Assembly: GCF_015351075.1 (NCBI RefSeq)
Contig: NZ_JADKRS010000005.1
Coordinates: forward strand, 65,577-129,576
Direction: 5' to 3'
DNA: 64,000 nucleotides
Origin: Clavibacter sp. VKM Ac-2873
GTDB lineage: Bacteria > Actinomycetota > Actinomycetes > Actinomycetales > Microbacteriaceae
The first letter of the stretch is position 1. Every line of letters begins with the position of its first letter. The notes below the pieces were generated by a model that saw only the letters and a list, made by a program, of their open reading frames with translations, did no database searches and was not told the origin of the DNA. Position numbers and translations under genes: made by a program. Shown one piece after another: positions 43,062 through 59,516 of the stretch.

Positions 43062-44840
43062 TCAGGGGGACGACGGGATGAAGCGGCGCAGGTGGTCGCG
43101 CAGAGCCGGGTCCACTACGTGGACGAAGGTGCCGCGGATCCCGCGCGTCATGAGAACGGCGTAGACGTTGCTGATGAGGAGCCGGAGGTCGGCGTCCGTG
43201 TAGGTGATCCCGAGCGTCGGGTTGTTCTCCTGGCCCTTCGCGTCGAAGTACGACGCGCGATCCATGGCGAGGCGGCCGCTCCCGGTGTCGTAGCGGAGGT
43301 CCGGGCCGATGATCACGCCCGCGTAGTTGAGGTCGTATCCCTGGACCGTGTGGATGGACCCGACCTCGTCGAGCGCCGTGCGCGAGCCGATCCAGTCCTT
43401 CGTCGTGCTGTTCCAGCGCGCGCGGTAGTCGCCGATCACGATGTCGAACGCGGCCGGGTCCTTCTTCGAGACCCACTTCCACGCGTATCCCGCGACCATG
43501 CGGGCGAGGCCGTGCTCGGCATCACGCTCGCGGATGACCTGATGCATCGCCGCGACGTCGTCGAACATGCGGAACTCGTAGTCGCCGAGGGAAGCGGATG
43601 GGAGCCGCCGCTCCGATCCCGCGCTCGAGGTGGCGCCGAGGATGCGACGGATGTGGCCGACGTAGTCGGAGCCCGCGGCGACCCGCATCTGGGACATGAG
43701 CGGGAAGAGGCGATCGTCACGACGGGCGTCGTCGAGGAGCGCGCCGACCGTGGCCGCCGGGAGGTCGGCGGGTCGGACGGTCTGCGCGGGATCGAGCATC
43801 AGGATCTGGTGGTCGCTCTGGGCGCGGATCCAGTCGAGCTGCGTCTTCCTCGTGTCATCGGAGCCGAACAGCCGTGCGGTGATCTCCGAGAACTTCGTGT
43901 TCAGCGGGCCAGATGCCTGGTTCGCGCGCTGGTTCAGCCGATGCGCCTCGTCCACCACGAGCAGGCCGAAGCGCTCGCGGCTCTCGCCCACCTGGAACGG
44001 CGTGAGCACCGCGATGTCCTGCAGGCCCGGAGTGCTCGCGAACACCTTCGCGACCGATCTCCGGAGCGACTGCTGGGGGACGACGAACGCCGTGCGCAGC
44101 CCCTCGAGGAGACCGCGGTTCTCGCCCAGGAAGTAGTCGGTGAGGAGCGAGTCGCTGTCGATCACGTCGTCCGGTTCGAGGCGACGGACATCCGCGATCA
44201 GCTTGAGCAGGTAGATCGCGAGGATGGTCTTGCCCGTGCCGGGCTCGCCCTGGATCACCGTGGTGCTCGTCGTGCCGGCGCGAAGGTCCTCGACCAGCGC
44301 CTCGAGCACGCCCTCGACCGCCACCTCCTGATCGCGCGTCAGCGCCTTGAACGGCGAGAGCTTGAAGAGGTCGTCGTTCTCGATCTCGGTGATCGAGCGC
44401 CGGAAGAGCCCCTCGGCACGCAGCTGGTCGAAGACCGCCTCGAACTGGGCCGTATAGGCGACGCGGTCGTAGTACTCGGCGTTCGTGATGCCGATGTTGC
44501 GGTTCAGCACCGTGTAGCGGCCGTCGCCCGAGAACAGCTCGATGAGGCGCGACTCGAGGTCGAGGCACGCCGACTTGTTGAACGTGTCGCTGACGATCAC
44601 GCGTGCGGTGCGGAGGTGCCCCCGTCTCGGGGAGGCGATGTGCTGGCGCAGCCGACCCGCGGCATTCAGCGATTCGCCGACGTACACGTCATCCCGGCGG
44701 GGTCCCCGGGCGGGGCGCGTGGAGGGCGGCCCGTCGAGCACGTAGACGACCGGCCAGTTCGCGTGGCGAGGATCCTCGTCCGCCCACCCCGTGACGACAT
44801 CGCGGTCGAGGGACGTCGGGTGGATCTCAGAGCGCGTCAT
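43062..44840 (-). CDS. GIY-YIG nuclease/DUF2075 helicase fusion
   Basis: A 592-residue fusion. Residues 30-110 hold a GIY-YIG-like domain (VVYVLDG ... DVYVGES, Arg in AAGRLRQHI and catalytic-like Glu in DLESRLIELF). From about 180 onward lies a DUF2075 P-loop helicase with Walker A GEPGTGKTIL, Walker B LLVVDEAHRL and C-terminal HTVQGYDLNYAGV. Fusions of this type occur in defence islands. It overlaps the pyrophosphohydrolase by 14 nt. Confidence 0.85.
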   Translation of the reverse strand: MTRSEIHPTSLDRDVVTGWADEDPRHANWPVVYVLDGPPSTRPARGPRRDDVYVGESLNAAGRLRQHIASPRRGHLRTARVIVSDTFNKSACLDLESRLIELFSGDGRYTVLNRNIGITNAEYYDRVAYTAQFEAVFDQLRAEGLFRRSITEIENDDLFKLSPFKALTRDQEVAVEGVLEALVEDLRAGTTSTTVIQGEPGTGKTILAIYLLKLIADVRRLEPDDVIDSDSLLTDYFLGENRGLLEGLRTAFVVPQQSLRRSVAKVFASTPGLQDIAVLTPFQVGESRERFGLLVVDEAHRLNQRANQASGPLNTKFSEITARLFGSDDTRKTQLDWIRAQSDHQILMLDPAQTVRPADLPAATVGALLDDARRDDRLFPLMSQMRVAAGSDYVGHIRRILGATSSAGSERRLPSASLGDYEFRMFDDVAAMHQVIRERDAEHGLARMVAGYAWKWVSKKDPAAFDIVIGDYRARWNSTTKDWIGSRTALDEVGSIHTVQGYDLNYAGVIIGPDLRYDTGSGRLAMDRASYFDAKGQENNPTLGITYTDADLRLLISNVYAVLMTRGIRGTFVHVVDPALRDHLRRFIPSSP

Positions 44841-45147
44841 ACCGTGTGCTGCGTCCGCGAGCCTTGTCGACCGGGTACTTGGCGCGCGTGACAGCGAGCT
44901 TGTCGAGCACGATCCGATCGGGATCCACGCCCAGGCGCTCGGCGAGGAGGAGGCAGTACGTGAGCACGTCGGCGAGCTCCGCCTGCACCTGCTCGGGATC
45001 CCCTTCGGCGTCCCACTGGTAGCACTCGAGCAGCTCGCCGGCCTCGATCGCGATGCTCTTGGCGAGATTCTCCGGCGTGTGGAACTGCGCCCATTCCCGC
45101 TCGGCGACGAAGGCCGCGAGCTCCTCGCGCACGTCTCGGCTGGGCAT
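44827..45147 (-). CDS. MazG-like nucleotide pyrophosphohydrolase
   Basis: A 106-residue all-helical NTP pyrophosphohydrolase with EAGELLECYQW and ELADVLTYCLLLAERLG, the E-x2-E ... E-x2-D metal site. It may hydrolyse dNTPs or alarmones. A leaderless promoter (TACCGT, 6 nt, ATG) fixes the start. It overlaps the GIY-YIG/DUF2075 gene, so the two form one unit. Confidence 0.87.
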   Translation of the reverse strand: MPSRDVREELAAFVAEREWAQFHTPENLAKSIAIEAGELLECYQWDAEGDPEQVQAELADVLTYCLLLAERLGVDPDRIVLDKLAVTRAKYPVDKARGRSTRYDAL

Positions 45148-45278
45148 GCGGTCACGGTAGCAGCCGTCGCGCGCGCCGTCCGAGGGGAGCACGGCCATCC
45201 CGAAATGGGGGCACCCGCTGTTCCATGAACGCGCATCGACATCCGTATCGTCGGCATCACCGAGACGAGGGAGTCCCC

Positions 45279-46391: not shown

Positions 46392-46524
46392 TCCGAGGCG
46401 CCGACCGGGGCGGATGGTCTGTGCCTCACCTCATCTAGTCGGGGAGACGAGGGCGGCCTTCCGGATCCGCGGATCCGAGCTCGCTCCGATCAGCGCTGGC
46501 TCCGGGCTCGGCCATCGTGCCCGG

Positions 46525-47001
46525 TCACCGGCCGCGTCCTCCGGGCGCATCACGGCGACCGGCGCCCCTCCCGAGCCGTGCCGCGGCCGGCGTCGCACGT
46601 CGGACGATCGCCGCCGGCAGTCCGGTGGGATGTGTCCGCGGAGCTGGAGATGCGCCTGCGCTCGCCGTCGTAGGTTCACCGTCCTCCGCTGGCCCTCCTG
46701 GGCGTCCCTCGCGCTCGCCCGCCGACGCCACGGGAACCGATCGTGTTCCGGCCACGGGGAGATCCTGCGGATGAGGCAGGTCGCCTCGGAGAGCCGGGGC
46801 ATCGCTCCGGGTGGAATCGCGCGCGGCTTCGATCCGCTCCTCCTGCTCCTCGCGTCTCTCGACCGGTGTCACGGCTGCTGCCTCGACGCTGTCCAGCAGC
46901 GCGTTCGGATCCGGACCGTCGGCCTGAGGGGGGATGCCCGCGGCGCCGATGAAGGCGACTCCTCCGACCAGGACGCCGCCCAGGATCCGGTGCCCTTTCA
47001 C
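46525..47001 (-). CDS. Single-TM partner protein A of the PqqD-like/VirD4 locus
   Basis: A 158-residue protein. The N-terminal TM segment (about 5-23, ILGGVLVGGVAFIGAAG) is followed by PNALLDSVEAAAVTPVERREEQEERI and a Pro/Arg-rich tail. The first 80 residues are clearly paralogous to partner B at 49024-49755. The tail is basic and Arg-rich rather than acidic, so this copy may have suffered a frame change after about residue 88. Its ATG overlaps the stop of PqqD-like paralogue 1 as ATGA. Confidence 0.68.
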   Translation of the reverse strand: MKGHRILGGVLVGGVAFIGAAGIPPQADGPDPNALLDSVEAAAVTPVERREEQEERIEAARDSTRSDAPALRGDLPHPQDLPVAGTRSVPVASAGEREGRPGGPAEDGEPTTASAGASPAPRTHPTGLPAAIVRRATPAAARLGRGAGRRDAPGGRGR

Positions 47002-47576
47002 GGCCCCTCGGTCGCCTCGAATGTCACGGCCACGCGACCCTGGAGGGCGGAGATGAGGCGGTAGGCCTCGTCCATCAGGAAGCGCTCGAACGACTGCCCG
47101 GTGCGCGCAACGCCCTCCTCGATCGCGGTGCGGTCGGCGTCGTCCGCGAGGGCATCGTCGCGCGTCGCCTCGGCGATCTCTCCGAGCGTGCGTCGGCCGT
47201 CGGCCTTGGTGAGGAACCGGGCGCCGTACTCGGTCAGCTCGAACGGCTCGTCGGATCCCGAGCTGAAGCGGTATCCGTCGTCGAGCACCTCATCGAGGAT
47301 GATGTCCACGCGCGGCACGGGTATGACGTCCAGGGCCGATAGAGGTGCGTCGTCGCCGATGAGGGCGACGATGCCGAGCTTCGCGTACCCGACGAGGAGA
47401 CGGCGCTCCTGCTCGTCGAGATCCTGGTCGGCCAGGGTCGGGTCGATCGACCGCAGCAGCTGGGCCGTCTCCGGCGCGAGCGTGTGGTTCCTGGTCTTCG
47501 ACGTGAGGGGATCCAGCAGCGCGAGGTTCGGCTTGCCCTCGAACTCGCCCAAGTACCCGAGTGGGACGACGTGCAC
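46998..47576 (-). CDS. Tandem PqqD/RRE-like protein, paralogue 1
   Basis: A 192-residue protein. The N-terminal half (DPLTSKTRNHTLAPETAQLL ... LGIVALIG) and the C-terminal half (PFELTEYGARFL, ADGRRTLGEIAEAT) each look like a PqqD-type winged helix, the fold of RiPP recognition elements. The end is conserved among paralogues (DEAYRLISALQGRVAVTFEA). GTG start with GGAAGGAG upstream. Coupled by ATGA to partner A. The family is not one I know by name; the PqqD link is inference from the pattern. Confidence 0.72.
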   Translation of the reverse strand: MHVVPLGYLGEFEGKPNLALLDPLTSKTRNHTLAPETAQLLRSIDPTLADQDLDEQERRLLVGYAKLGIVALIGDDAPLSALDVIPVPRVDIILDEVLDDGYRFSSGSDEPFELTEYGARFLTKADGRRTLGEIAEATRDDALADDADRTAIEEGVARTGQSFERFLMDEAYRLISALQGRVAVTFEATEGP

Positions 47577-47692
47577 GGGTGCTCCTTCCTGTCGTGGGAC
47601 TGCTTCGATGCGTCGCGCACGCTCAGGCGGGCACCCGTCTGGCGATGGTAGCGACGGCGCGGTGCGGCTCGCCGGAGCTGTGCCCCGCGGTC

Positions 47693-49024
47693 CTACCGCG
47701 ACGTAGGCGACGGCGGCGACGACGACGACGACGGCGGCGCGAACCGGAACCGCACCGGCGGGCCGTCCGGCAGCGCCGCCACACAGGTCCCGACTCCCAG
47801 GCTCGAGAGGTCCCAGTCCTCGACCATCGCTCCCGTGATGACCTCCTCGCGGAGTCCCGACCCACGCACGGCGGCGTCGAAGCGCGTCAGCTTGCGGTTC
47901 GCGCCGAAGCGGTCGCCGACGAAGCGCCGCGAATCCCCGTCGTAGAGGCGGAACGCGAACACGGATCCGAACGCCGACAGCACCGACGCGGCCATCTCCG
48001 GCCCGTACATCTCCTGCACCTGCTTCACGTTCTGCGTGCCGACGATGAACCGCAACCCCAGCGAGCGGCCGAAGTTCACGCCGTCCGAGAGGTGCGTCAG
48101 CTCGGGGAGCAGCGCGAACTCGTCGAGCACGAAGAAGACGCGCCCGGCCGCGCGGCGGCGGGACATGGCCTCCTTCATCGCGACGTCGAGCATGGTCGTG
48201 AACACCGGGGCGAGGGTGCTGCCCGAGGCGATGTCGTACTCGAGGAACAGCGCCCGCGCCCCCTTCGCGCGGAGGAACGCGCGGATGGAGAAGTCGCCCG
48301 GCCGCCCGAACGACGACCGGAACGACTCCTGGATCACCTGCTGCATGAACGCCATCGTCGCCATGGTCGAGTTCGACCCCTCCTTGGCGATGTAGTGGCG
48401 CGCGCCGCGGAGGTCGGCGTTGCCCGGTCGGTCGAGCAGCGCGTGCATCTCGCCGATGCCCATGCCGCCGACGATCATGCGGATGTCGCGGTTCGACCGC
48501 TCCTCGGATTCCCGGTACATCGCCGTGACGAGGGCCGTGAACACGTCGCGCGCCGCGTTGGCGAAGTACGCGTTGTCGCCGGCGTCGGCGATGAGGCGGG
48601 AGGACAGGCCGCTGCACATCTCGAAGATCTCGTCCTCGGGCAGGCGGCCCGGCGGCAGCGCGCGGAACTCCTCGAACAGGTTCCACGACACCTGGCCCGC
48701 GAACTCGTCGGCGAGCGTCGCCGCGATGACCGCATCGCCCGGCCGGTGGAACGTCTCGTGGTAGTCGCCCTTGGTGTCGAACACGACCATCACGTCGTCC
48801 GCGGTCATGCTCGCGCGCACGGAGGCGACGAGCGCGGAGATGCCCACGGTCTTCCCCGTGCCGATGCCGCCGAGGTAGAGCACGTGCCGGCCGAGCATCG
48901 CGTCGTCGAACCCGATGCTCGTCCCGGCGACGCCGTGGACCCCGAACTCGGCCGGCCGCGGACCGATGTGCCCCGTGCAGTCCCGCAGCGCGGTGCCGCT
49001 GACGACCTCCTCCGAGTAGGGCAT
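47693..49024 (-). CDS. Soluble VirD4/TraG-like ATPase (TraM-recognition-domain type)
   Basis: A 443-residue P-loop ATPase of the HerA/FtsK/VirD4 group. Walker A is GGIGTGKTVG; VVFDTKGDYHE is the family motif; Walker B is FFVLDEFALLPEL and the sensor region is FIVGTQNVKQVQEMYG. No TM helix is seen, unlike VirD4 of type IV secretion. The tail is Ser/Pro-rich. ATG 49024 is placed 5 nt after GGAG and shares a base with the partner B stop (TGATG). There is no relaxase or other T4SS gene, so its role is not standard conjugation. Confidence 0.83.
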   Translation of the reverse strand: MPYSEEVVSGTALRDCTGHIGPRPAEFGVHGVAGTSIGFDDAMLGRHVLYLGGIGTGKTVGISALVASVRASMTADDVMVVFDTKGDYHETFHRPGDAVIAATLADEFAGQVSWNLFEEFRALPPGRLPEDEIFEMCSGLSSRLIADAGDNAYFANAARDVFTALVTAMYRESEERSNRDIRMIVGGMGIGEMHALLDRPGNADLRGARHYIAKEGSNSTMATMAFMQQVIQESFRSSFGRPGDFSIRAFLRAKGARALFLEYDIASGSTLAPVFTTMLDVAMKEAMSRRRAAGRVFFVLDEFALLPELTHLSDGVNFGRSLGLRFIVGTQNVKQVQEMYGPEMAASVLSAFGSVFAFRLYDGDSRRFVGDRFGANRKLTRFDAAVRGSGLREEVITGAMVEDWDLSSLGVGTCVAALPDGPPVRFRFAPPSSSSSPPSPTSR

Positions 49025-49755
49025 CACCACTCCGGTTCGGGGTCGTCGGTGTCGGGGTCCGGACCGGCGTCCTCGGAGCCCTCCGACGGCGTCGATGGCT
49101 CAGGCGCCGCAGCATCCACCTGCTGCTCTCCGCCCGCCTCGGTCGCTGCCTCTTCCACGACTTCACGGTCGCCCGACGAGTCGACATCCGCGGGAGCGCT
49201 GTCCGGTCTGACGGGCGGATCGCTCGCGGTCGCATCCGTCGCCGTCTCCTCCACGCCGCCCTGGGGCGCGTCGGCTCTCCGGGGAAGCGCGGAAGCTGCA
49301 TCCTCGGGTTCGGGTTCGGGTTCGGGTTCGGGTTCGGGTTCGGGTTCGGGTTCGGGCTCCGGCTCCGGCTCCGGCTCCGGCTCGGGTTCGGGCTCCGTTT
49401 CTGCTCCGGTCGCCGGATCCGCGGATCCACCGACCGGCGCTGGCCCGCCCTCGCCGGCGCCCGGTTCAGATTCGACGGGATCGACGGCGACCGACGTAGT
49501 GCCCGTCGATTCGATGGCGTCGGGCTCCGGGAGGTCGTCCCGGAGAGATGGAGTCTCGTCGTCAGACGAGATGCTCGCCTCGTCGAGGCGCGCTTCCAGC
49601 TCCTCTCTCCTCTCGGTGGGCGTCACGGCGACCGCCTCGATGCCGTCGAGGAGTGCCTCGGGGTCGGAGTCCGCGAGGTGCGGCGCCCCGCCCAGCGACG
49701 CGATGACGACGGTTCCTCCCAGGAGGCCCCCGCCGATGAACGTCCTGCCTCTCAT
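49024..49755 (-). CDS. Single-TM acidic partner protein B with Glu-Pro repeats
   Basis: A 243-residue protein: TM segment at about 6-24 (FIGGGLLGGTVVIASLGG), a conserved block (PEALLDGIEAVAVTPTERRE), then a disordered acidic tail with an uninterrupted run of about 16 Glu-Pro dipeptides (about 120-150), ending PEPEW. It is translationally coupled to PqqD-like paralogue 2 (ATGA) and to the ATPase (TGATG). It is likely a membrane-tethered or secreted substrate or adaptor (inference). Confidence 0.72.
   Translation of the reverse strand: MRGRTFIGGGLLGGTVVIASLGGAPHLADSDPEALLDGIEAVAVTPTERREELEARLDEASISSDDETPSLRDDLPEPDAIESTGTTSVAVDPVESEPGAGEGGPAPVGGSADPATGAETEPEPEPEPEPEPEPEPEPEPEPEPEPEPEPEDAASALPRRADAPQGGVEETATDATASDPPVRPDSAPADVDSSGDREVVEEAATEAGGEQQVDAAAPEPSTPSEGSEDAGPDPDTDDPEPEW
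49304..49393. repeat. GGTTCG/GGCTCC hexamer tandem repeat
   Basis: About 14 hexamers (mostly GGGTTC/GGTTCG frames, then GGCTCC) encode the Glu-Pro run on the minus strand. It is a likely site of length variation. Confidence 0.92.
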
Positions 49756-50330
49756 GTCCCGGCGGTCGCCTCGAACGTGATCGCTTCCCGCCCGCGCAGG
49801 GCGGCGACGAAGCGGAAGGCCTCGTCCTCGATGTACTCGTCGAACGTCTGCTGCAGTTCCACCTCGCCGACGCGGATCGCGGCGCGGTCCTCCTCGTTCG
49901 CGAGCGCGTCCTCCTTCACTGCGAGGGCGATCTCCCCGAGGGTGCGTTCGCCGTCGACCCGGAGCAGGAACCTTCCCCCGTACTCGGTGAGCTCGAAGGG
50001 CTCGTCCACCTCCGACGTGAAGCGGTAGCCGTCGTCGAGGATGGCGTCGAGGACCACGTCGTACCGAGGAGCCGGGATGATCGACAGCTCGGACAGGGGC
50101 GCTCCGTCCTCGATGATCGCGACCATGCGGAGTGCGATGCAGATCTCGAGGAGGCGATGCTCTTCCGGGGTGAACACGCGGCCGGTCTCGGTGGGGTCGA
50201 GGGAGAGGAGGAGCTCGAGCGCCTGCGGGGTGAGGTCGTAGCTCGCGGCCTTGCGCGTGAGGGGATCCTGGACGGCCATGTTGTGGCGGCCATCGAATTC
50301 GGCGATGTGGCCGAGCTGCACGACGCGCAT
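49752..50330 (-). CDS. Tandem PqqD/RRE-like protein, paralogue 2
   Basis: A 192-residue paralogue, the same length as paralogue 1. N half: VQDPLTRKAASYDLTPQALE and MVAIIEDGAPL; C half: PFELTEYGGRFLLRVDGER followed by TLGEIALAV; end DEAFRFVAALRGREAITFEA. The ATG at 50330 is used (AGAGG 9 nt upstream); an ATG at 50339 also exists. Coupled by ATGA to partner B. Confidence 0.72.
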   Translation of the reverse strand: MRVVQLGHIAEFDGRHNMAVQDPLTRKAASYDLTPQALELLLSLDPTETGRVFTPEEHRLLEICIALRMVAIIEDGAPLSELSIIPAPRYDVVLDAILDDGYRFTSEVDEPFELTEYGGRFLLRVDGERTLGEIALAVKEDALANEEDRAAIRVGEVELQQTFDEYIEDEAFRFVAALRGREAITFEATAGT

Positions 50331-50376
50331 GTCGTTCATCCTCTCGAGGGTGCTGTGAGTGAGGTGCGATGCGTGT

Positions 50377-51027
50377 TCACTCGCCGGACTCGCCCGTTGG
50401 GGGGAGTCTGCCTGGCTCCGCCTGACGCGCGATCGGCTCATCCACGGCCAGGGGGATCGCGTGCGGTTCGAACGAGACCGCATCGTTCCCGCGGAGCGCT
50501 CGGATGAACCGGTACGCCTCGGCTTCGAGGAACTCGCCGAAGGACGCGCCCGATTCCCGCTCGATCTCCTCGATGGCGGGCTGCTCCTCCGCGCGCGCGA
50601 GAGCCTCCTGCTGGACGGCCGCGACGATCTCCGCGAGACTCCGTTTGCTGTCGGCCATCCCGAGGAAGCGGGTGCTGTGCTCGCTCAGCTCGAATGTTCG
50701 GCCGAGCGTCGACGTCAGCTCATAGCCGCCATCGGTCATCCCGATGAAGCGGATGTCGGCGCGCGGGACCGGGATGAACGTCAGCTCGTCGACGGAGTCG
50801 CGGTCGCTGGTGAGGGCCACGATTCCGAGACGAGCGAAGCCGCGGAGGTACCGCCATTCCTCCGGCGTGAAGTCGTGGACAGTGTCCGCGGGGTCGAGCT
50901 CGTGCAGCAACGCGTACATGGACGGGTCGAGCCGATACGCCTTCCTCTCTTCCGTACGGGGATCCTGAATGGTGACATTGGGCTCACCGTCCACCTCGCT
51001 CAGATATCCGAGCCCTAAGACGTGCAT
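50377..51027 (-). CDS. Tandem PqqD/RRE-like protein, paralogue 3
   Basis: A 216-residue paralogue with a 25-residue C-terminal extension ending PPTGESGE. N half: IQDPRTEERKAYRLDPSMY; C half: TFELSEHSTRFLGMADSKR then SLAEIVAAV; end AEAYRFIRALRGNDAVSFEP. ATG with GAGGG upstream. No coupled partner gene follows; 46 nt separate it from paralogue 2. Confidence 0.72.
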   Translation of the reverse strand: MHVLGLGYLSEVDGEPNVTIQDPRTEERKAYRLDPSMYALLHELDPADTVHDFTPEEWRYLRGFARLGIVALTSDRDSVDELTFIPVPRADIRFIGMTDGGYELTSTLGRTFELSEHSTRFLGMADSKRSLAEIVAAVQQEALARAEEQPAIEEIERESGASFGEFLEAEAYRFIRALRGNDAVSFEPHAIPLAVDEPIARQAEPGRLPPTGESGE

Positions 51028-51653
51028 GCCGCCCTCTTCTCCGTCGTCGTGATGGCTGTCGCTGGTGGAGCGCTGGCGTGGGACTCGCCGATGACCGACG
51101 CCGTGGGCGCCGGCTCGAAGGTGACCGTCGGGTTCCCGCGGAGGGCGTCCATCCCGGAGGAGATCGTCGAACGGGACGCCGCGTCGCTCGTCCTCCTCGA
51201 TCTCCCGGCGCTCGTCGTCATCCGCGAGCGCGCGATCCTTGACGCTCTGCACGATCTCGCCGAGGGTGCGCCGGCCGTCGGCCTCGCGCAGGAACCTCGC
51301 GCCGTACTCGCTCAGCTCGAACGGACCCCCGGCTCCGAGGTGAGGCGGTACCCGTCCTCGAGCGCCTGGTCGAAGAGGATGTCGTCGCGGGTGACGGGGA
51401 GGAAGTCGAATCGGGCGAACGGCGCGTCGTCGGGGACGAGCGCGATGACGCCGATCCCGGCCATGTCGCGGAGGATCCGGCGTTCATCCGCCGTGAAGGG
51501 CTGGTCGGCGGCGACCGGGTCGACGCGTCGGATCAGATCCAGCAGCCGCGGGGTGAGGGCGTAGCTCCGGGCCTCGTTCGTCACGGGATCCTGGATGGTG
51601 ATGTCCGGCGTCGGCCCGGAGTCCCGGAGCTGGCCCAGCTGCACGACGTGCAT
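51015..51653 (-). pseudogene. Frameshifted paralogue 4 of the tandem PqqD/RRE-like family
   Basis: The first 105 residues (MHVVQLGQL ... EDGYRLTSEPG) match the family in one frame, then stop soon after. The next part (PFELSEYGARFLREADGRR) is in another frame, indicating a single-base loss in a GGGG run near 51332. The last part (ALRGNPTVTFEPA) is in a third frame, and the expected DEAYRF segment is missing, indicating a short deletion near 51155. The ATG at 51653 is intact. Two lesions argue against sequencing error. Confidence 0.78.
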
Positions 51654-51695
51654 GTGTCTCCCTGTCTGCGGCGTGATCCGCGATCGTGCGGCGGC

Positions 51696-52472
51696 TCAGT
51701 CCCACGTACCCGCGAGCTTGCCGCGTGCCTGGGCGTCGAGGATCAGGGCGCCGGCCTCGAACGAGATGCGCTCGAGGTCGTCGGGGCGGATGTAGAGGCC
51801 CGCGTTCGACGCGCTGACGATGCCGAGCTCGCGCGCCAGTACCCAGAGCGCGGCGCCGAGCACCGCGATCGGCCCCAGCGCGACGAAGAGGACGAGCACG
51901 AAGAGGATCTTCGCCACGTCGTGCCGGGTGGTGATCTCCTGCCGCTGGCTGCCGGTGATCACGCTGAGGACCGCCGCCCTGCTGCGGAGCACGAAGAACC
52001 CGATCACCCCGAGGACGAGGGCGAAGAAGGTGCCCACGCCGAACAGCCACGCGAGGCCGTCGAGGCTGGAGGAGTCGGCGCCCACGAGCACCAGCCAGGC
52101 GATGAGGCTGACGAGGAGGTTGATCGCGGTGCCGGCGAGCGCCGCCACGCCGAGCGCGTCGTAGCCGGTGTCGCGGCTCACCTCGATGCCGTCGACCTTG
52201 TCGATCTTGTACTCGCGCGAGTAGGTGGACGAGGACGAGACCGTCTTGGCCTCGGCCGAGTAGATGACGCGGGAGTCGGTGACGAAGAGGTAGCTCACCA
52301 GGCGGCCGAGCGGGCGGGTGCGGCGCGCCACGGGGTAGGTGGCGAGCACGGTCTCGTCGGGGAGGAGGCGGAAGGGGTAGGCGGTCGCGGCCGCGACGGG
52401 CTCGGCCCCTCCGCCGCCGTCCTCGACGATCGGCTTCGTCGCGGCGGCGTCATCCATCTGCGGTTCGAACAT
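51696..52472 (-). CDS. Membrane protein with PH-like domain
   Basis: A 258-residue protein. After an acidic N terminus comes a bacterial PH-like strand set (FRLLPDETVLATYPVAR and SYLFVTDSRVIYSAE), then two TM helices (about 110-135 and 145-170) and a further hydrophobic segment (about 190-220), ending LAGTWD. It starts 4 nt after the stop of the lipoprotein gene and lies 42 nt before paralogue 4. Function is unknown. Confidence 0.75.
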   Translation of the reverse strand: MFEPQMDDAAATKPIVEDGGGGAEPVAAATAYPFRLLPDETVLATYPVARRTRPLGRLVSYLFVTDSRVIYSAEAKTVSSSSTYSREYKIDKVDGIEVSRDTGYDALGVAALAGTAINLLVSLIAWLVLVGADSSSLDGLAWLFGVGTFFALVLGVIGFFVLRSRAAVLSVITGSQRQEITTRHDVAKILFVLVLFVALGPIAVLGAALWVLARELGIVSASNAGLYIRPDDLERISFEAGALILDAQARGKLAGTWD

Positions 52473-52476
52473 GCGG

Positions 52477-54474
52477 TCAGGCTCCCCAGGGGTCGGTGCG
52501 GTCGGTGGTGCGTGCGGTGGTCGTGGTCGTGTTCGTGGATGCGGCGGGTCGGTCGCCGAGCAGGGTCGGTCGCGTGCCCGCGGCGGCGGGCGGCGGCTCG
52601 ACGGCCAGGGCGCCGTGGTGGGGCGTCCGGATGGCGCCCTCGGGCGGTGGATCCACGTCGAGCGCACCCGTGCGTCCGCCGGATTTCGCAGGCGGGGCCG
52701 GCGACGCGAGCAGCGAGCCGCGCTCCGCCGCGCGGGCGTCGAGGGGCGGATCGCCCGCGAGCCGCTCGTCGAGCCGGGTCCGGCGTCGCGCGGCCAGCAA
52801 AGTGTCCAGACGCGTCCGCGCCGTGCCGACGCGCACCGCCACCGCCTGTCGGCGCCGGATGAGGAGCACGAGCCCGACGGCGAGCGCGAGTGCCAGGACG
52901 CTCGCGGCCACGACGCCCGCCGGGGTCATGCTGCTCGTCCGGACGACGGTGATCCGGGCGCCGTCGCCGGCCGAGCCGCCCTGCGCCCCGTCGACCCACG
53001 AGCCGAGCGGGAGGTCCAGCGTCACGTCGGTGCCGTCGAGGACGCGGTGCCCGGACGCGAGGGCGTCGAAGCCGGGGTCGATCGCGTACTCCGAGCGCCG
53101 GACGAGGAAACCGTCGTCCACGATCCGCATCCCGACGGAGGCTCCCGGGGCCCACCTCGCGTACCGGTCCGCGAAGTCCTCGACGCTCGCGCCCGCGATG
53201 GTCACGGTGTAGGTCGTGCTGTCCGGTCCCGCGTCGGAGGCGATCGTGCCGACGTCCGGATCCGGCCGGTAGCGCTGCAGGAAGCCGTCCCCGACGGCGT
53301 CGGCGCTGGACCTCGGGACGACGATGGTGGTCGTGCCGGTCACGTCCCCGCCGGAGCCGATGGAGAGGTGCGACGCGAGCGACGTGATGGGCGGGCTGAG
53401 CACGAAGCTCACCGGGCTGGCGGTGGCCGACCCCACATCCATCGACTCCGGGGCGTAGCCAGCGCCTGCGGTGACGTGATCGGGCACCCCGCCGTGGCCG
53501 ATGGCGTCGGGGGCGCACACCGCCGCGCACGACGCCGTGTCGGTGAGCTGCATGACCTCCTTCGACGGGTCGTCCGGGCTCGGAGAGATGTCGACCGCGA
53601 AGCTCGTGGCGCCTCCGCCGAGCGCGGTGGTCGTGTCCGACTGGATCGCCGCCGCGTCGCCGGAGAAGGCCATCGTCCACGTGCCCGGCTCGGGCGCGGC
53701 GACCTCGCCTCCTGTCGGGGTGGCGTCTCGGAGGAACGCCTCGATGCGCTGCTCGTCCGCCGGATCGCGGCCGGCGTCGAGGCGGTATGTGATCGTCCGT
53801 GTGATGGCGCCCTGGTCGGATGCGTCGGTCGCCATCGAGACGCCGTCGAACCCGTGGTTCTCCTCGTGCGAGTAGGAGAGCGGATCGCCGACGTCCGTGT
53901 GCCGCTCTCCCGCGAACACGACGGCCGCGCTGCCCTCCCCGCGCAGGGATCCGACGCCCTGGCTGCCGTCCACGACGCCGTCCGCGATCAGGCCGGAGAA
54001 CATCCAGCCCAGCAGGTCGCTGCTCGTGAACGACTCCTGGAGGTCGATGCCCCGCACGAGCGCGGAGTCGGTGACCGCGAACCGGGGCGCGGAGGAGCCC
54101 GTGCGCGTCGAGAGCAGCGTGCCGACCTTGCCCGCGTAGTCCTCGGGGGAGGAGAACGGGAGGGTGAAGGTCGCGGTGATGCCGCCCGAGTCCGTGCCGG
54201 TGATGCCCGAGTACGCCAGCGGGGACGGGAGGTGCCGGCGGACGGACGCGTCGATGGCGGCCGAGCCGCCCGACGCCTTCGCGAGGTCCTGCTGGCTCAG
54301 CGTGACGGTCATCTGCCGGGAGCCGGACCCGCCGGCGTCCACCGTCATCGTGGTGTCGATCACCGCCCCGCAGGCGCTGAGGGCGAAGGCGATGACGATG
54401 CCCAGCGCGGCTGCGGCGAGGCGGCGGCGCCCGCGCGAGACCGGCGCGTCCCCGGTCGGTCGGCGCCTCGTCAC
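52477..54474 (-). CDS. LppM-like lipoprotein with C-terminal TM and cytoplasmic tail
   Basis: A 665-residue protein. A lipobox (ALSACG) follows the signal peptide, and the next part (TMTVDAGGSGSRQMTVTLS) matches LppM-type lipoproteins. A large extracellular beta-rich region, one TM helix (about 475-500, VVAASVLALALAVGLVLLI) and a basic, Pro-rich cytoplasmic tail follow. The GTG at 54474 is supported by the GTGA overlap with a 10-codon uORF; GTGs at 54483 and 54537 are also in frame. First gene of the long minus-strand operon. Confidence 0.78.
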   Translation of the reverse strand: MTRRRPTGDAPVSRGRRRLAAAALGIVIAFALSACGAVIDTTMTVDAGGSGSRQMTVTLSQQDLAKASGGSAAIDASVRRHLPSPLAYSGITGTDSGGITATFTLPFSSPEDYAGKVGTLLSTRTGSSAPRFAVTDSALVRGIDLQESFTSSDLLGWMFSGLIADGVVDGSQGVGSLRGEGSAAVVFAGERHTDVGDPLSYSHEENHGFDGVSMATDASDQGAITRTITYRLDAGRDPADEQRIEAFLRDATPTGGEVAAPEPGTWTMAFSGDAAAIQSDTTTALGGGATSFAVDISPSPDDPSKEVMQLTDTASCAAVCAPDAIGHGGVPDHVTAGAGYAPESMDVGSATASPVSFVLSPPITSLASHLSIGSGGDVTGTTTIVVPRSSADAVGDGFLQRYRPDPDVGTIASDAGPDSTTYTVTIAGASVEDFADRYARWAPGASVGMRIVDDGFLVRRSEYAIDPGFDALASGHRVLDGTDVTLDLPLGSWVDGAQGGSAGDGARITVVRTSSMTPAGVVAASVLALALAVGLVLLIRRRQAVAVRVGTARTRLDTLLAARRRTRLDERLAGDPPLDARAAERGSLLASPAPPAKSGGRTGALDVDPPPEGAIRTPHHGALAVEPPPAAAGTRPTLLGDRPAASTNTTTTTARTTDRTDPWGA

Positions 54475-54503
54475 AGCGTGCACGGGACTGCTGACCTGAT
54501 CAT
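54471..54503 (-). CDS. 10-codon leaderless uORF before the lipoprotein gene
   Basis: ATG at 54503 opens MIRSAVPCTL and stops in a GTGA overlap with the GTG of the lipoprotein gene, in a different frame. A TACTTT -10 box (complement 54510-54515) ends 6 nt before the ATG, as in other leaderless genes here. This suggests that ribosomes load on the uORF and re-initiate. Confidence 0.5.
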   Translation of the reverse strand: MIRSAVPCTL

Positions 54504-54509
54504 GCGCTG

Positions 54510-54515
54510 AAAGTA
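54510..54515 (-). promoter_or_regulatory. -10 box (TACTTT) of the 54.5-46.5 kb operon
   Basis: Minus-strand TACTTT with 6 nt to the ATG of the uORF. No other strong promoter was seen between here and the ATPase gene. Confidence 0.5.
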
Positions 54516-54627
54516 GCGGCCGCCGACGCCTGGCCACCGGGGTTCTCCACGGCGGGACCGGTGCCCGGCTCGATGTCGGACGCCATCGGCGTCCACGCGG
54601 GCGTGGGGATCGGGCGCTAGGGACCCG

Positions 54628-54960
54628 TCACGGGGCCAGCGCCTCCGCGATGCGTGGGAACTCCACCGCGATCACGCGCCACAGCACCTCCATGTCGGTG
54701 CCGTCGTAGTCGTGAGCGACGAAGTTCCGCACCGCGCGGATCCCGCTCCAGTCGATGTCGGGGCGGGAGTCGCGGAAGGCCGTCGGGAGACGGTCGGCCG
54801 CGGTCGAGAGATCTACGACGAGCGAGCGGGCGATGCGGCGCTGCTCGTCGTCATCGGGGTCGACGAAGCGTGCGTGTCCGCGCACCGTCACCCGTCGGGC
54901 GGATGCCGCGAATCGCGCGATGTCCGCGAGGAGCGCCGGCACTCGTTCGTCGCCGATCAT
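54628..54960 (-). CDS. hepT: HepT-like HEPN toxin (DUF86)
   Basis: A 110-residue helical HEPN protein with the RNFVAHDYDG catalytic motif (R-N-x3-H). In known pairs HepT is an RNase kept inactive by poly-adenylylation at its Tyr near the motif by MntA. The Tyr of AHDYDG is present. Its ATG shares a base with the mntA stop (TGATG). Confidence 0.88.
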   Translation of the reverse strand: MIGDERVPALLADIARFAASARRVTVRGHARFVDPDDDEQRRIARSLVVDLSTAADRLPTAFRDSRPDIDWSGIRAVRNFVAHDYDGTDMEVLWRVIAVEFPRIAEALAP

Positions 54961-55421
54961 CAGAGGGCCACGGCCTCGGCTCGGATGCGGTCCATCGTCG
55001 GTCCTGTGCCCCGGTCGGAGACCACGTCCACGGCGATCCCCAGCAGCTCGGCGATCTCGGCCATGAAGCCCGCGAGATCGAAGAGCGACGCGTCCGGCGC
55101 CGGATGCACGAGGAGGTCCACATCGGATCCCGGGGTGGCGTCCCCGCGCGCGACGGACCCGAACACGCGGACGTCGCTGACGCGTCGGCGCGCGGCGGCC
55201 TCGAGGATCGGCGTGCGTGAAGCGCGGAGCCTCTCCATCGACGGGATCCGGAGGGCCGCGCCCAGGCGACTCAGCGTGTCGGCCGACGGCTGTCGGCGCC
55301 CGCTCTCGTACGCTGCGATGTTCGGCTGTGGCACGCCCGTGATCGCGGCGAGCTCGCGCTGCGAGAGCGCGGCCTCGTGGCGGAGTCGCCGCAGCTCCTC
55401 GCCTATGGACGGATCGCTCAT
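54960..55421 (-). CDS. mntA: MntA antitoxin nucleotidyltransferase fused to XRE HTH
   Basis: A 153-residue fusion. Residues 5-60 are an XRE-type helix-turn-helix (LSQRELAAITGVPQPNIAAYE). Residues 70-153 are a minimal nucleotidyltransferase with GSVARGDATPGSDVDLLV. The antitoxin modifies HepT; the HTH probably gives autoregulation, a job often done by a separate protein. Leaderless promoter: TATCAT, 7 nt, ATG. Confidence 0.88.
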   Translation of the reverse strand: MSDPSIGEELRRLRHEAALSQRELAAITGVPQPNIAAYESGRRQPSADTLSRLGAALRIPSMERLRASRTPILEAAARRRVSDVRVFGSVARGDATPGSDVDLLVHPAPDASLFDLAGFMAEIAELLGIAVDVVSDRGTGPTMDRIRAEAVAL

Positions 55422-55461
55422 GGCCGTGATGATAGCGGGCCGATATCGCGAATCGCGAGGG

Positions 55462-55533
55462 TGCCCCTGGAGGGACTCGAACCCCCAACCCTTTCCTTAG
55501 GACGGAACTGCTCTTCCATTGAGCTACAGAGGC
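55462..55533 (-). tRNA. tRNA-Arg (anticodon CCT)
   Basis: The minus-strand cloverleaf has a 7-bp acceptor (55527-55533 with 55463-55469), discriminator A, an anticodon stem with loop GTCCTAA giving CCT, and a TTCGAGT T loop. CCA is not encoded. It marks the edge between accessory and core DNA here. Confidence 0.93.
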
Positions 55534-55709: not shown

Positions 55710-58700
55710 GTGTGGCGTGCCAATGAACGATCCGACGACGACGACGACCTGCTCTCCGGGTTCGCCGCCGAGCCTCTTGAGGACCCCCACGTGAATGCTT
55801 CCCACAACAGCACCAGCCCCCACGACCTCCGCGTCGGCGACGTGCAGCTCGGGAGCGGCAACGTGGCCGAGCCCCGCTGGCGCGAGTGGCGCGAGCAGCT
55901 GGCAGGCATCGGCGGCACCTCTCCTCTCCTGCACTTCGTGGACGCGCCCGGCTCGCGCATCGAGCTGAGCACCACGCACCCGGGCGGCCTCGCGCAGTTC
56001 ATCACGGGCAAGACGACGCTGCTGTCGTCCCTCATCCGCGACGACCTCGCGCTCCGCAGCGCCCGCAAGGCCGCCAACCGCATCACGCAGAAGGGCATCG
56101 AGCTGGTCTCGGCCCGGGGGATCGAGTCGATCCACCTGGCCATCGGCCTCGCCGAGTGGCGCTTCGCCGACGAGCAGTTCCGCGCGCCGGTGCTCCTGCG
56201 CCCGCTCGCGATCCGCCGCCACGGCAGCGACTACGAGGTGCGCCTCAAGGGCCAGCCGTTCCTCAACCCGGCGCTCGCCCGCGCGCTCGAGGAGCAGTTC
56301 CAGATCACGCTCGACGCCGAGTCGTTCGTCGCGCTCGCCGTGCAGAACGGCGCCTTCAAGCCGCAGCCCGTGATCGACCGCCTCCGCGGACTCACCTCGC
56401 ACCTGCCCGCGTTCGCCGTGCAGCCGCGCCTCGTCGTCTCGTCCTTCGCGGAGGTGGGCCGCGCGCTCGCCGAGGATGCCGAGCACCTCGAGCACCTCGT
56501 CATCGACGCGATCGCCGGCAACCCCACCGCCAAGTGGGGCGTGGGCGAGTCCTACGCGCCCGTCGACCCGATCCCGCAGGACCAGCGCCCGCCCGTCACC
56601 GACACGCTGCTGCTCGACGCGGATCCCGAGCAGGAGTACGTCATCGCGCAGATCAACGCGGGCAACTCGCTCGTGGTGACGACGCTCCCCGGCACCGGCG
56701 GCACGCAGACCATCGTCAACTCCATCGGCTGCCTGGTCGCGCAGAACAAGCGCGTGCTCGTCGTGAGCCCCCGCGCCTCCTCGCTCAAGGGCATCGGCCA
56801 GCGCCTCGCCGACGTCGGCCTTCCGGGCCTCGCGGTGGCGCCGAAGTCGCTCAAGCGCGACGTGGTGCAGTCCATCGTCCGCAACGAGAAGGCCGCACCC
56901 GCGCAGACCGCCGAGGTCGACGACGCGCTCGTGCGCCTCCGCCACGTGCTGCTCGACTACCGCTTCGCGCTCGGACGCCCCGACAAGGACCTCGGCGTCT
57001 CCGTGCTCGACGCGCTCGGCGAGCTGTCCCGCCTGGCCCTCCTGCCGGATCCGCCGGCCACGACCGCGCGCCTCACCCGCGACGCCGTCACGGCCATCGC
57101 GCACGACCGCGCGAGCGCCGCCGCCTCCCTCGTCAAGGCCGCGAGCCTCGGCGAGTTCCGCTACGGCCCGGGCGACTCGCCCTGGTACGGCGCCACCTTC
57201 TCGACGAGCGCCGCCGCGACGCACGCGCACGACCTCGCGAAGTCGCTCTCCGCCGACGGCCTGCCGCGCCTCCTCGAGCGCGCCGACGAGCTCATCGGCC
57301 AGACGCGCATGCGCGCCTACACGTCCATCGACGAGCTCGGCGTCTACCTGCGCCTCCTCCTCGACGTGCGCGAGACGCTCGACAAGTTCCAGCCCGTCGT
57401 GTTCGACCGGTCGCTCAGCGAGATCATCGCGGCCACCGGATCCCGCCGCGACGCTCCCGAGATGACGAGCATCACGCGCCGTCGCCTCCGCAAGCTCGCG
57501 CGCGAGTACGTCCGCCCCGGCGTGCACATCTCCGACATGCACGCGAGCCTCACGGCCATCCAGAAGCAGCGGATCCTGTGGCAGCGCTACGTCGCGGTGG
57601 GCTCCACCCCCGAGGTCCCGCGCGGCATCTCCGACGTGCACGTGCGCTACCAGGAGGTCGCCGCCGACCTCAAGGTGCTCGACGCGCCGCTGAGCATGCT
57701 CACGCGTCCCACCCCGCTCGGCCAGCTGCCCATCGGCGAGCTGCGCGAGAAGGTCGCGCAGCTCGCCGAGGACAGCGAGGTGCTCCAGAACCTGCAGGAG
57801 CGCACCTCGCTCCTCGCCGAGCTCCGTCGCCTCGACCTCGATCCGCTGCTCCGCGACCTCTCGGACCGGCACGTGCCGCAGGAGGCCGTCGCCGCCGAGC
57901 TCGAGCTCGCCTGGTGGCAGTCCGTCCTCGAGCAGATGCTCGCGGGCGACAAGGCGCTCCTCAACGCGAACACGAGCGTGCTCGACCGCCTCGAGTCCGA
58001 CTTCCGTCTCGTCGACGAGGCGCACGCCACCGCCAGCGCGGGCCTGCTCGCGTGGCAGCTCGCGGAGACGTGGAAGATCGGCGTCGTCGACTGGCCCGAG
58101 GAGGCGCACCACCTGCGCCAGCTGCTCGGCGGATCCGCCCCCGTCGACGCCGCGGCCCTCCACCACTCCGCGCCCCACCTCTCCCGCACCATCGCGCCGG
58201 TCTGGCTCGCGTCGCCCTACGAGGTGCCCGCGATCACCGACGAGATGCCGTTCGACGCCGTGTTCCTCGTCGACGCCGGCGCCATGACGCTCGCGGAGGC
58301 CCTCGGCGGCATCCGTCGCGGCAAGCAGACCGTCGTGTTCGGGGATCCCGTCACGCAGACGCCGTCGCCGTTCACCATCGCGGTGGTCCCGCAGCCCGAG
58401 CGCTCCACGCCGCAGCTCGCGGACGACGACTCGACGCTCGAGGAGCGCCACGCCGATTCCGCGCTCGCGCGCCTCGGCGAGCTGCTGCCCACCCTCTCCC
58501 TCACGCGCAGCTACCGCGCGGGCGGCGAGGACCTGGCCGAGCTCGTCAACCGCCGCTTCTACGGCGGCCGGATCCAGTCCCTCCCGTGGGCCGGCACGTT
58601 CCTCGGCCACGGCAGCCTGTCGCTCGACTTCGTCGCCGACGGCCACGGCATGCCCGACGAGGACACGGGCGCCGTCGAGAGCGTCGACGCCGAGGTGATC

Positions 58701-59516
58701 CGCGTCGTGGAGCTCGTGCTCGACCACGCGAGCCACCGCCCGCGCGAGTCGCTCATGGTCATCACCGCGAGCGCCCGTCACGCCGTGCGCGTGCAGCAGG
58801 CCGTGCTCCACGCGGCCGCCAAGCGCAGCGACGTCACCGAGTTCTTCATCGGCGACCGCGCGGAGCCGTTCATGGTCGCGACGCTCGAGCAGTGCGTCGC
58901 GCAGAGCCGCGACCGCGTGATCTTCTCCGTCGGCTACGGCCGCACCCCGCACGGACGCGTGCTGTCGAACTTCGGCGCCCTCGCGGCGCCCGGCGGGGAG
59001 CGCCTGCTCGCCGTCGCCATGACGCGCGCCCGCCGCTCGATGGTGGTCGTCTCCTGCTTCCAGCCCTCGGACATCGACCAGGACCGGATGAAGCACGGCA
59101 TCGTCGCGCTCGCCCAGATCCTCTCCGAGGCGGAGGCGCGCTTCCGCGAGGACCCGATCCCGGACGACGGCGACGCCATGCTCGTCGACCTCGCCCGCCG
59201 CCTCGAGGGCCTCGGCCTCGCGCCCGCCCTCGGGCACCGCGACAAGCTCGGCCTCGTGGCCTCCTACGGCGGCCGGGCGATCGCGATCGAGACGGATCCC
59301 GTCGTCAACCAGACGAGCCTCCGCGAGTCGCTGCGCCTCCGGCCCGAGATGCTCAAGCGCCTCGGCTGGCACTACCTGCGCGTGCACTCCTTCGAGCTGT
59401 TCGCGGATCCGGACGCCGTCGCCCGCCGCATCGCCACCGCCCTCGGCGCGATCTCGGATGCGCATCCGGTGACCGCTCCCGTGCAGGTCCAGGCCGGCGC
59501 GCACCGGGCGGACTGA
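55710..59516 (+). CDS. Large SF1-like (UPF1/DUF4011-type) AAA ATPase with degenerate catalytic motifs
   Basis: A 1268-residue protein with an N-terminal domain (about 50-310), a RecA-like domain split by a long helical insertion (about 430-800), a second RecA-like domain (LTRSYRAGGEDLAELV, LLAVAMTRARRSMVVV) and a C-terminal restriction-like fold (about 1170-1250). Walker A reads LPGTGGTQTIV with no Lys, and Walker B reads FLVDAGAMT with Ala for Glu. The C-terminal AIAIETD lacks the nuclease Lys. So it probably binds nucleic acid without ATP-driven unwinding. GTG 55791 with GAGG upstream is an alternative start. Confidence 0.82.
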   Translation: MWRANERSDDDDDLLSGFAAEPLEDPHVNASHNSTSPHDLRVGDVQLGSGNVAEPRWREWREQLAGIGGTSPLLHFVDAPGSRIELSTTHPGGLAQFITGKTTLLSSLIRDDLALRSARKAANRITQKGIELVSARGIESIHLAIGLAEWRFADEQFRAPVLLRPLAIRRHGSDYEVRLKGQPFLNPALARALEEQFQITLDAESFVALAVQNGAFKPQPVIDRLRGLTSHLPAFAVQPRLVVSSFAEVGRALAEDAEHLEHLVIDAIAGNPTAKWGVGESYAPVDPIPQDQRPPVTDTLLLDADPEQEYVIAQINAGNSLVVTTLPGTGGTQTIVNSIGCLVAQNKRVLVVSPRASSLKGIGQRLADVGLPGLAVAPKSLKRDVVQSIVRNEKAAPAQTAEVDDALVRLRHVLLDYRFALGRPDKDLGVSVLDALGELSRLALLPDPPATTARLTRDAVTAIAHDRASAAASLVKAASLGEFRYGPGDSPWYGATFSTSAAATHAHDLAKSLSADGLPRLLERADELIGQTRMRAYTSIDELGVYLRLLLDVRETLDKFQPVVFDRSLSEIIAATGSRRDAPEMTSITRRRLRKLAREYVRPGVHISDMHASLTAIQKQRILWQRYVAVGSTPEVPRGISDVHVRYQEVAADLKVLDAPLSMLTRPTPLGQLPIGELREKVAQLAEDSEVLQNLQERTSLLAELRRLDLDPLLRDLSDRHVPQEAVAAELELAWWQSVLEQMLAGDKALLNANTSVLDRLESDFRLVDEAHATASAGLLAWQLAETWKIGVVDWPEEAHHLRQLLGGSAPVDAAALHHSAPHLSRTIAPVWLASPYEVPAITDEMPFDAVFLVDAGAMTLAEALGGIRRGKQTVVFGDPVTQTPSPFTIAVVPQPERSTPQLADDDSTLEERHADSALARLGELLPTLSLTRSYRAGGEDLAELVNRRFYGGRIQSLPWAGTFLGHGSLSLDFVADGHGMPDEDTGAVESVDAEVIRVVELVLDHASHRPRESLMVITASARHAVRVQQAVLHAAAKRSDVTEFFIGDRAEPFMVATLEQCVAQSRDRVIFSVGYGRTPHGRVLSNFGALAAPGGERLLAVAMTRARRSMVVVSCFQPSDIDQDRMKHGIVALAQILSEAEARFREDPIPDDGDAMLVDLARRLEGLGLAPALGHRDKLGLVASYGGRAIAIETDPVVNQTSLRESLRLRPEMLKRLGWHYLRVHSFELFADPDAVARRIATALGAISDAHPVTAPVQVQAGAHRAD

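Follow-up and report, generated by a model that had tools for sequence, protein, structure and literature searches.

What might a bacterial operon accomplish when it combines a series of paralogous winged-helix proteins with a soluble ATPase related to type IV coupling proteins, and places both among short partner proteins and two membrane proteins? The question is raised by a minus-strand operon of Clavibacter sp. VKM Ac-2873, analyzed here within a 64,000-nucleotide stretch (the window) of its 3.3-Mb genome. A first-pass annotation, made from the letters alone, had described a run of nine genes encoding a lipoprotein, a PH-like membrane protein, four paralogues of which one is broken, two partner proteins (A and B) and the ATPase, and every one of these genes was found in the order described (Table 1). 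We consider it possible, with a probability of roughly 0.4, that their products form a motor docked at the membrane, which would sort, export or assemble proteins dedicated to it, a reading that leans on predicted structures as well as on gene order. The individual folds are of known kinds, and the joint make-up was not found described. The earlier impression that no described system has this make-up has held up in the listed titles and abstracts of the literature searched, a scope that leaves aside preprints and subscription literature, and to the extent that the cassette proteins were compared with the family libraries, these contain no matching set.

Table 1. Features of the operon and the surrounding accessory cassette, in window coordinates.
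Feature	Position	Strand	Characteristics or basis
Transmembrane lipoprotein	52477..54537 (c.54537; start codon uncertain)	-	Lipobox LSAC, C-terminal transmembrane segment, cytosolic tail
PH-like membrane protein	51696..52472	-	Three hydrophobic segments
Broken tandem winged-helix paralogue 4	c.51021..51653	-	Frame break, apparent deletion fusion
Tandem RRE/PqqD-like paralogue 3 (predicted; RRE, see text)	50377..51027	-	Sub-cut-off PF05402 match
Tandem RRE/PqqD-like paralogue 2 (predicted)	49752..50330	-	Alignment; sub-cut-off TIGR03859 match
Partner B	49024..49755	-	N-terminal hydrophobic segment, conserved block, Glu-Pro repeat, C-terminal PEW
TrwB/TraD-type motor ATPase without transmembrane segment	47693..49024	-	PF10412
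Tandem RRE/PqqD-like paralogue 1 (predicted)	46998..47576	-	Alignment and predicted structure
Partner A	46525..47001	-	N-terminal block as in partner B, other tail
Accessory cassette, approximate extent (~8.2 kb)	46392..54578	.	Comparison with empty sites

Several genes of the operon overlap. Both paralogue-partner pairs in the window overlap by four bases, as had been pointed out, and a third pair with the same overlap was found in the Clavibacter locus L006, while the ATG of the ATPase gene lies inside the stop codon of partner B (TGATG overlap). A promoter scan found none, and terminator-like matches numbered three against 1.1 expected.

The ATPase, the most conserved part of the cassette, had been read as a VirD4-type protein, and the family searches support this reading: PF10412 (TrwB) matches at E 1.2e-42, with 146.7 bits against a cut-off of 20.5, PF02534 and PF12696 are likewise above cut-off, TraD_Ftype is among the best family matches, and the top solved relative by sequence is TrwB (E 1.2e-20). 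The Walker motifs GGIGTGKT and LDEF are invariant in all four aligned rows. Type IV coupling proteins usually, though not universally, carry an N-terminal transmembrane segment; as had been stated, the cassette ATPase has none (maximum 19-residue hydropathy 1.34, with no segment of at least 1.6), and its Cryobacterium and Paenibacillus relatives are built in the same way. Identity to the window protein ranges from 69 to 97% across the Clavibacter, Cryobacterium and Curtobacterium loci, with the nearest named relative in Clavibacter sp. VKM Ac-2872 (96-97%). The reported lack of T4SS neighbours also stands, as no T4SS genes were recognized in the cassette. PF03135 (VirB4-type), the one model searched and one whose control matched 1 of 14 genomes, gave 0 matches in the whole window genome, and membership in a T4SS is not claimed on these sequence comparisons.

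Within the genus, the tandem paralogues occur wherever this ATPase does. The ATPase gene is present in 5 of 18 Clavibacter genomes and the paralogues in exactly those five, as the first-pass annotation had led us to expect; such co-occurrence would have a chance of 1 in 8568 if the genomes were independent, which related species are not. Paralogues 1, 2 and 3 are 43-53% identical to one another, and a search of its own genome with paralogue 2 recovered, in addition to the query, two full copies (E 5.9e-61 and 5.0e-42) together with two fragments (E 2.5e-21 and 5.7e-10), E-values because of which the repetition can be placed far beyond chance. An alignment of 23 intact copies from the five genomes contains the motifs claimed earlier, with D22-P23-x-T25 and F112-E113-L114-x-E116 invariant in every row. 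Paralogue 4 is indeed broken, by a frame break, and is better described as what looks like a fusion left by deletion of two neighbouring copies: its first ~510 bp match one copy at 93% and its tail matches only a second copy. Intact copies of paralogue 4 exist in related genomes, and the four related genomes each hold one or two more paralogue copies than the window.

Structure prediction gives these proteins a recognizable fold. The AlphaFold2 model of paralogue 1 (predicted local distance difference test, pLDDT, 92.6; predicted template modelling score, pTM, 0.89) consists of two winged helices. The proposal of two PqqD-like winged helices in each ~192-residue paralogue is thus upheld at the level of predicted fold, which is no proof of peptide binding; the family profiles point in the same direction but remain below cut-off. 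For this model, as for that of the lipoprotein below, the structural rows are the matches listed, and a family outside them is not thereby absent. Both halves of the model match winged helices, including PqqD domains and recognition elements (RREs) of ribosomally synthesized and post-translationally modified peptide (RiPP) pathways. Residues 84-189 match TbiB1, a structure solved with leader peptide (Z 7.1-7.2), residues 42-186 match PqqD (Z 6.8), and the C half matches PKMT winged helices with a best Z of 8.4. Residues 1-77 match domains of TbtB, a heterocyclase (presumably LynD), TruD, MccB and McbB at Z 4.3-6.2. RiPP-pathway proteins, among which we count TigE, make up 14 of the 31 rows with Z of at least 4.3 (the next row is at 3.4). 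The predicted C half, with strands at residues 92-98, 101-106 and 112-114, helices at 116-124, 131-144 and 146-159 and one extra helix, meets the RRE strand-helix order given in an excerpt of PMC12710340; the N half, with four strands and two helices of at least four residues, meets it only partly. The third strand of the C half is the Phe-Glu-Leu (112-114) that is invariant in 23/23 rows, and helix 3 and strand 3 are the elements between which RREs bind their leader peptide, according to PMC7470986. A PDB sequence search found no relatives for the paralogues or for the PH-like protein.

The partner proteins encoded next to the paralogues are organized into a common head and dissimilar tails. 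Partners A and B each contain one weak N-terminal hydrophobic segment (1.99 and 1.63 by 19-residue hydropathy), and a third partner, A', was found in two other genomes. In all three, the hydrophobic segment is followed by the block DPxxLLDxxEAxAVTxxERRxE, after which the sequences diverge: identities over the first 55 columns, the next 40 and the rest are 28/55, 15/36 and 18/67 for A and B, 35/55, 16/36 and 13/22 for A and A', and 28/55, 7/36 and 7/22 for B and A'. This constancy of the head and variability of the tail is as expected of a putative recognition segment plus cargo. Read to their stop codons, the partners comprise 113-243 residues and have low-complexity tails, that of partner B being rich in Glu and Pro and ending in PEW.

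The two remaining products are the membrane parts of the cassette. The label PH-like is one that we carry over from the earlier reader and from sequence motifs, Pfam and NCBIfam having given no support for it; in one comparison the Clavibacter protein is 24% identical to that of a Paenibacillus plasmid over 223 columns (E 4e-7). The lipoprotein combines a lipobox with a further hydrophobic segment at about residue 512, as numbered in the reading used, behind which a tail follows, and its homologues in L006 (Clavibacter), L007 (Cryobacterium) and L008 (Curtobacterium) are 36-85% identical. No Pfam or PDB sequence match was found for it. The lipoprotein could be modelled with intermediate confidence (pLDDT 77, pTM 0.53, four sequences), and the top structural match of this model is LppM (2nc8; Z 8.3, root-mean-square deviation 3.6, 142 residues), which Foldseek places in the sixth row with a probability of 1.00 and E 5.5e-3; the matches after it, at Z 6-7 and with very large deviations, are oligosaccharyltransferase subunits. 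LppM of Mycobacterium tuberculosis is reported, in an excerpt of PMC6151718, to bind phosphatidylmyoinositol mannoside, a lipid-binding property that cannot be transferred to the cassette lipoprotein from a modelled fold match alone.

Related sets in other genera indicate which parts belong together. Cryobacterium sp. Y50 encodes a lipoprotein, a PH-like protein, a P/Q-rich protein and the ATPase, and the Curtobacterium plasmids pCPAA3 and pS16 encode a lipoprotein, a PH-like protein, a small protein of 207-210 residues, an acidic repeat protein and the ATPase. The Paenibacillus plasmids pY5S7-1 and pART37 harbor a PH-like protein with a zinc ribbon, an ATPase (36.6% identical), two overlapping genes (for proteins of 198 and 184 residues in pY5S7-1) and an acidic repeat protein, present in pART37 as an annotated gene only. 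In the four genera seen, the PH-like gene is never more than 3 kb away from the ATPase gene, and both are homologous as far as Paenibacillus. Because these two homologous genes stay together in two phyla, the pair is likely to be a functional unit, as judged from sequence. Low-complexity proteins, either acidic or P/Q-rich, are encoded next to the ATPase in both Cryobacterium and Curtobacterium and less than 2 kb away from it in Paenibacillus. The Cryobacterium protein occupies the same place as partner B and terminates in MDW; the Curtobacterium and Paenibacillus repeat proteins are not W-terminal, the Curtobacterium ends being W-rich. No homology of these proteins with the Clavibacter partners was established. 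That the small Curtobacterium and Paenibacillus proteins are equivalent to the paralogues is a proposal; by eye only, we take them to resemble two winged helices.

Two of these contexts are of interest in themselves. The Cryobacterium sp. Y50 set (L007 4827-10299) adjoins two flagellin genes, which may reflect either a chance insertion or a flagellum-related role, and its neighbours on the other side are fliD- and fliS-like genes. In the haloarchaeal plasmids L012 and L013, a TrwB-type ATPase (30-31% identical) adjoins a small gene annotated as a relaxase, forming a compact pair that resembles a mobilization module.

If the cassette is indeed a membrane-docked motor with its own dedicated proteins, the PH-like protein and the lipoprotein's cytosolic tail would form the docking site for a hexamer of the ATPase. 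As adaptors, the tandem RRE-like proteins would each recognize a short stretch in the partner of the adjacent gene, most likely the shared block DPxxLLDxxEAxAVTxxERR, and pass the partner to the motor, which would thread or insert it into the envelope. Such a working mode would be like that of a type IV coupling complex, with its motor, small adaptors and Glu-rich substrates, without the remainder of a T4SS channel; a published precedent is the Legionella coupling complex, in which the subunit DotM binds acidic sequences rich in Glu (PMC5802825). More tentative is the fuller form of this proposal, in which the cassette would be a free-standing Gram-positive machine for protein translocation or assembly whose tandem RRE-type proteins select clients for a soluble motor of the coupling class.

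Several observations weigh against this reading. In the structural comparisons, 17 of the 31 rows are proteins from outside RiPP pathways (PKMT 4, Rv2067c 1, GdmN 6, NovN 1, NO66 5), as are the five best rows (four PKMT entries and one methyltransferase), and the Z-scores of paralogue 1 fall within a range that unrelated folds or a common arrangement can reach. Foldseek with paralogue 1 gave no match at E <= 0.001, the best being a methyltransferase (8.6e-3) and GdmN. The PqqD profiles match below cut-off or not at all: PF05402 gives E 9e-4, 0.0044 and 0.048 in three paralogues and nothing in three others, with a best score of 19.9 bits against a cut-off of 23.4 (paralogue 3 is the match at E 0.0044, 17.8 bits), and TIGR03859 gives E 0.019 in paralogue 2 and 0.16, with at best 14.9 bits against a cut-off of 46. 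In addition, Cryobacterium sp. Y50 has no recognizable paralogue, and profile comparisons detected no homology between the Clavibacter paralogues and the small proteins from Curtobacterium and Paenibacillus. The paralogue profile matched 0/4 of the Curtobacterium, Paenibacillus and Cryobacterium genomes or records and does match in Clavibacter, Pfam and NCBIfam offered no PqqD pointer for the small proteins, and a PDB sequence search of one of them was likewise negative. As this homology is undetected elsewhere and no small protein of this kind was recognized in Cryobacterium, an RRE-like adaptor is supported for Clavibacter only.

The partners, moreover, are less stable than the motor and form the least stable part of the cassette. 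Of the five cassette genomes, two have an open partner B gene, one has it interrupted by an IS481-type transposase (L023 10311-11270; PF13011 E 1e-16) and two lack it, and partner A is open in three, truncated in one and frame-broken in one. Paralogues had been expected never to occur apart from the ATPase or the partner genes; the ATPase is open in 5/5 cassette genomes, but intact partners are absent from some of them. Selection on the partners is weaker, with ratios of nonsynonymous to synonymous substitution rates (dN/dS) of 0.37 and 0.41 (3 and 1 pairs), and so is that on the lipoprotein, with 0.53. Finally, the nearest families of the ATPase move DNA.

This last point introduces the main rival, in which the motor would move or exclude DNA, in plasmid maintenance, transfer or defence, and the winged-helix proteins would be DNA-binding adaptors, an explanation that we consider unlikely. 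The best ATPase families are those of conjugative coupling proteins (PF10412, TraD_Ftype), and the defence proteins mad8 (E 3.9e-15) and HerA of PADLOC-DB also match it; no relaxase gene was recognized in the cassette, however, PF03135 is without a match in the genome, and PADLOC-DB models match none of paralogues 1 and 2, the PH-like protein and the lipoprotein (0 families each). Four related records are large plasmids (two from Curtobacterium and two from Paenibacillus), and a gene for single-stranded DNA-binding protein adjoins the ATPase in pS16 and, as judged by eye, in pCPAA3, but all four plasmids are typed non-mobilizable. Distant haloarchaeal plasmid relatives adjoin a 'relaxase' gene in two records. 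Restriction-like, nucleotidyltransferase and helicase-like genes border the site in Clavibacter, yet such flanking genes are present without the cassette, and 17 of 18 genomes have the HSDR_N-type gene, two of them as a partial copy. The lipoprotein and the acidic tails would be left unexplained by DNA handling.

A second alternative, which is improbable, regards the cassette as a selfish element in decay and its tandem winged-helix proteins as DNA-binding regulators or decoys. Helix-turn-helix domains of regulators are structurally homologous to RREs, as an excerpt of PMC7470986 puts it, and cassette genes are broken or lost in four of the five cassette genomes, one of them by insertion of an insertion sequence. 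Set against this decay, the genes for the ATPase, the PH-like protein, the lipoprotein and paralogues 2 and 3 are open in all five, and dN/dS is 0.23-0.39 for the intact paralogues, 0.22 for the PH-like protein and, averaged over 10 pairs, 0.09 for the ATPase compared with 0.10 for a neighbouring core gene. The ATPase is under purifying selection, and because the motor is so constrained, a dead element does not fit. Least probable is a new RiPP-like pathway in which a modifying enzyme would act on partners presented by the paralogues, with the motor as exporter of the product, since the predicted RRE-like folds and a gene layout of recognition protein plus substrate are countered by partners of 113-243 residues with low-complexity tails and by the lack of any recognized modifying enzyme, peptidase or ABC transporter in the cassette and the flanking genes scanned, the rest of the genome not having been searched.

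Comparison of related genomes delimits the cassette and its spread. It is absent from the same site in all six cassette-less genomes compared (of 13), where the HSDR_N-type and nucleotidyltransferase genes adjoin in four and, in the other two, the nucleotidyltransferase gene is also gone and the helicase-like gene comes next. The cassette ends fall near the limits in Table 1 in three of four DNA comparisons with empty sites, the fourth having a longer gap, and inspection by eye revealed neither a target duplication nor an attachment site. Regarding vertical descent within the genus, dS of the ATPase and of its neighbour are only moderately correlated (r 0.54, 10 non-independent pairs). The HSDR_N-type gene, tried as a cassette member, was rejected on its distribution. 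Beyond it, an additional paralogue-partner pair is found in two of the five (L006 12452-13368; L023 5135-5982), and in the window two further genes lie at 43062-45198, one MazG-like and one for a GIY-YIG/DUF2075-like ATPase, the latter matching PADLOC PDC-S14 at E 4.9e-9. On the other side of the cassette are two defence-like candidates, a nucleotidyltransferase with a helix-turn-helix (54960-55421; PDC-S09, E 5.5e-25), present in 4/6 cassette-less genomes, and a large helicase-like protein (55710-59516; PDC-S37, E 1.3e-95), present in 6/6, with a tRNA-Arg at 55460-55533 beside them.

Outside the genus, the set is rare and patchily distributed. A widespread actinobacterial system was rejected, as only the window's own genome was matched at the family, class and order levels: by the paralogue 2 search in 1 of 249 genomes of the family, and by the ATPase alignment searches in 1 of 394 of the class (E 1e-40) and 1 of 396 of the order (E 1e-50), draws of genomes that overlap. 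For the genera of the Cryobacterium and Curtobacterium loci, the counts are 1 of 57 and 1 of 66 genomes, respectively, and a scan of 84,980 species genomes with the ATPase, sensitive to close relatives only, yielded three loci; the Paenibacillus relatives came from a plasmid collection and not from genome sampling. A phage origin was likewise rejected: a set of 50,697 phage records yielded nothing for the ATPase at E 1e-5, and among viral contigs 54 stretches fit a pattern, of which 0 were confirmed. PHROGs gave the ATPase only short Walker-region matches (a family of unknown function at 3.4e-5 and a terminase at 9.5e-4), and the best viral fold match of paralogue 1 was at E 0.062.

Should the cassette prove to be a membrane-docked motor with dedicated clients, peptide recognition by RREs would serve transport instead of chemical modification, the RRE fold would gain a second role as the selector of a translocation motor, coupling-type ATPases would work without a T4SS channel, and the whole would be unlike any described secretion system. 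With about five kinds of part, the cassette is small enough to be reconstituted, be it in vitro or inside a laboratory host, and closely related species that carry or lack it at a single chromosomal site offer a natural comparison for finding a phenotype.

Set beside known systems, the cassette resembles each in part. Among the five of its proteins scanned, which did not include the partners or paralogue 3, only the ATPase matches defence models of PADLOC-DB, and the gene set corresponds to no anti-phage system described there. The Dot/Icm coupling complex is similar by analogy only, through its VirD4-class motor, small adaptors and Glu-rich substrates (PMC5802825, PMC7280309), whereas no homologous adaptor or channel parts are established for the cassette, whose hosts are Gram-positive. 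With LppM of Mycobacterium tuberculosis the lipoprotein may share the fold of one extracellular domain (Z 8.3 over 142 residues), and it has a lipoprotein anchor as well, but it is larger and encoded in an operon with a motor. The type IV coupling proteins TrwB, TraD and VirD4 have the same ATPase core with Walker motifs, from which the cassette motor departs in its missing transmembrane segment and in the lack of recognized relaxase or channel genes in the cassette. The RRE and PqqD proteins share the predicted winged-helix fold, with TbiB1, PqqD, TbtB, TruD, MccB and McbB among the structural matches; in contrast to them, the paralogues match the profiles only below threshold and have no recognized modifying enzyme at their side, and they join two domains in tandem in a free-standing protein that occurs in four to six copies per cassette genome, broken ones counted, beside a motor.

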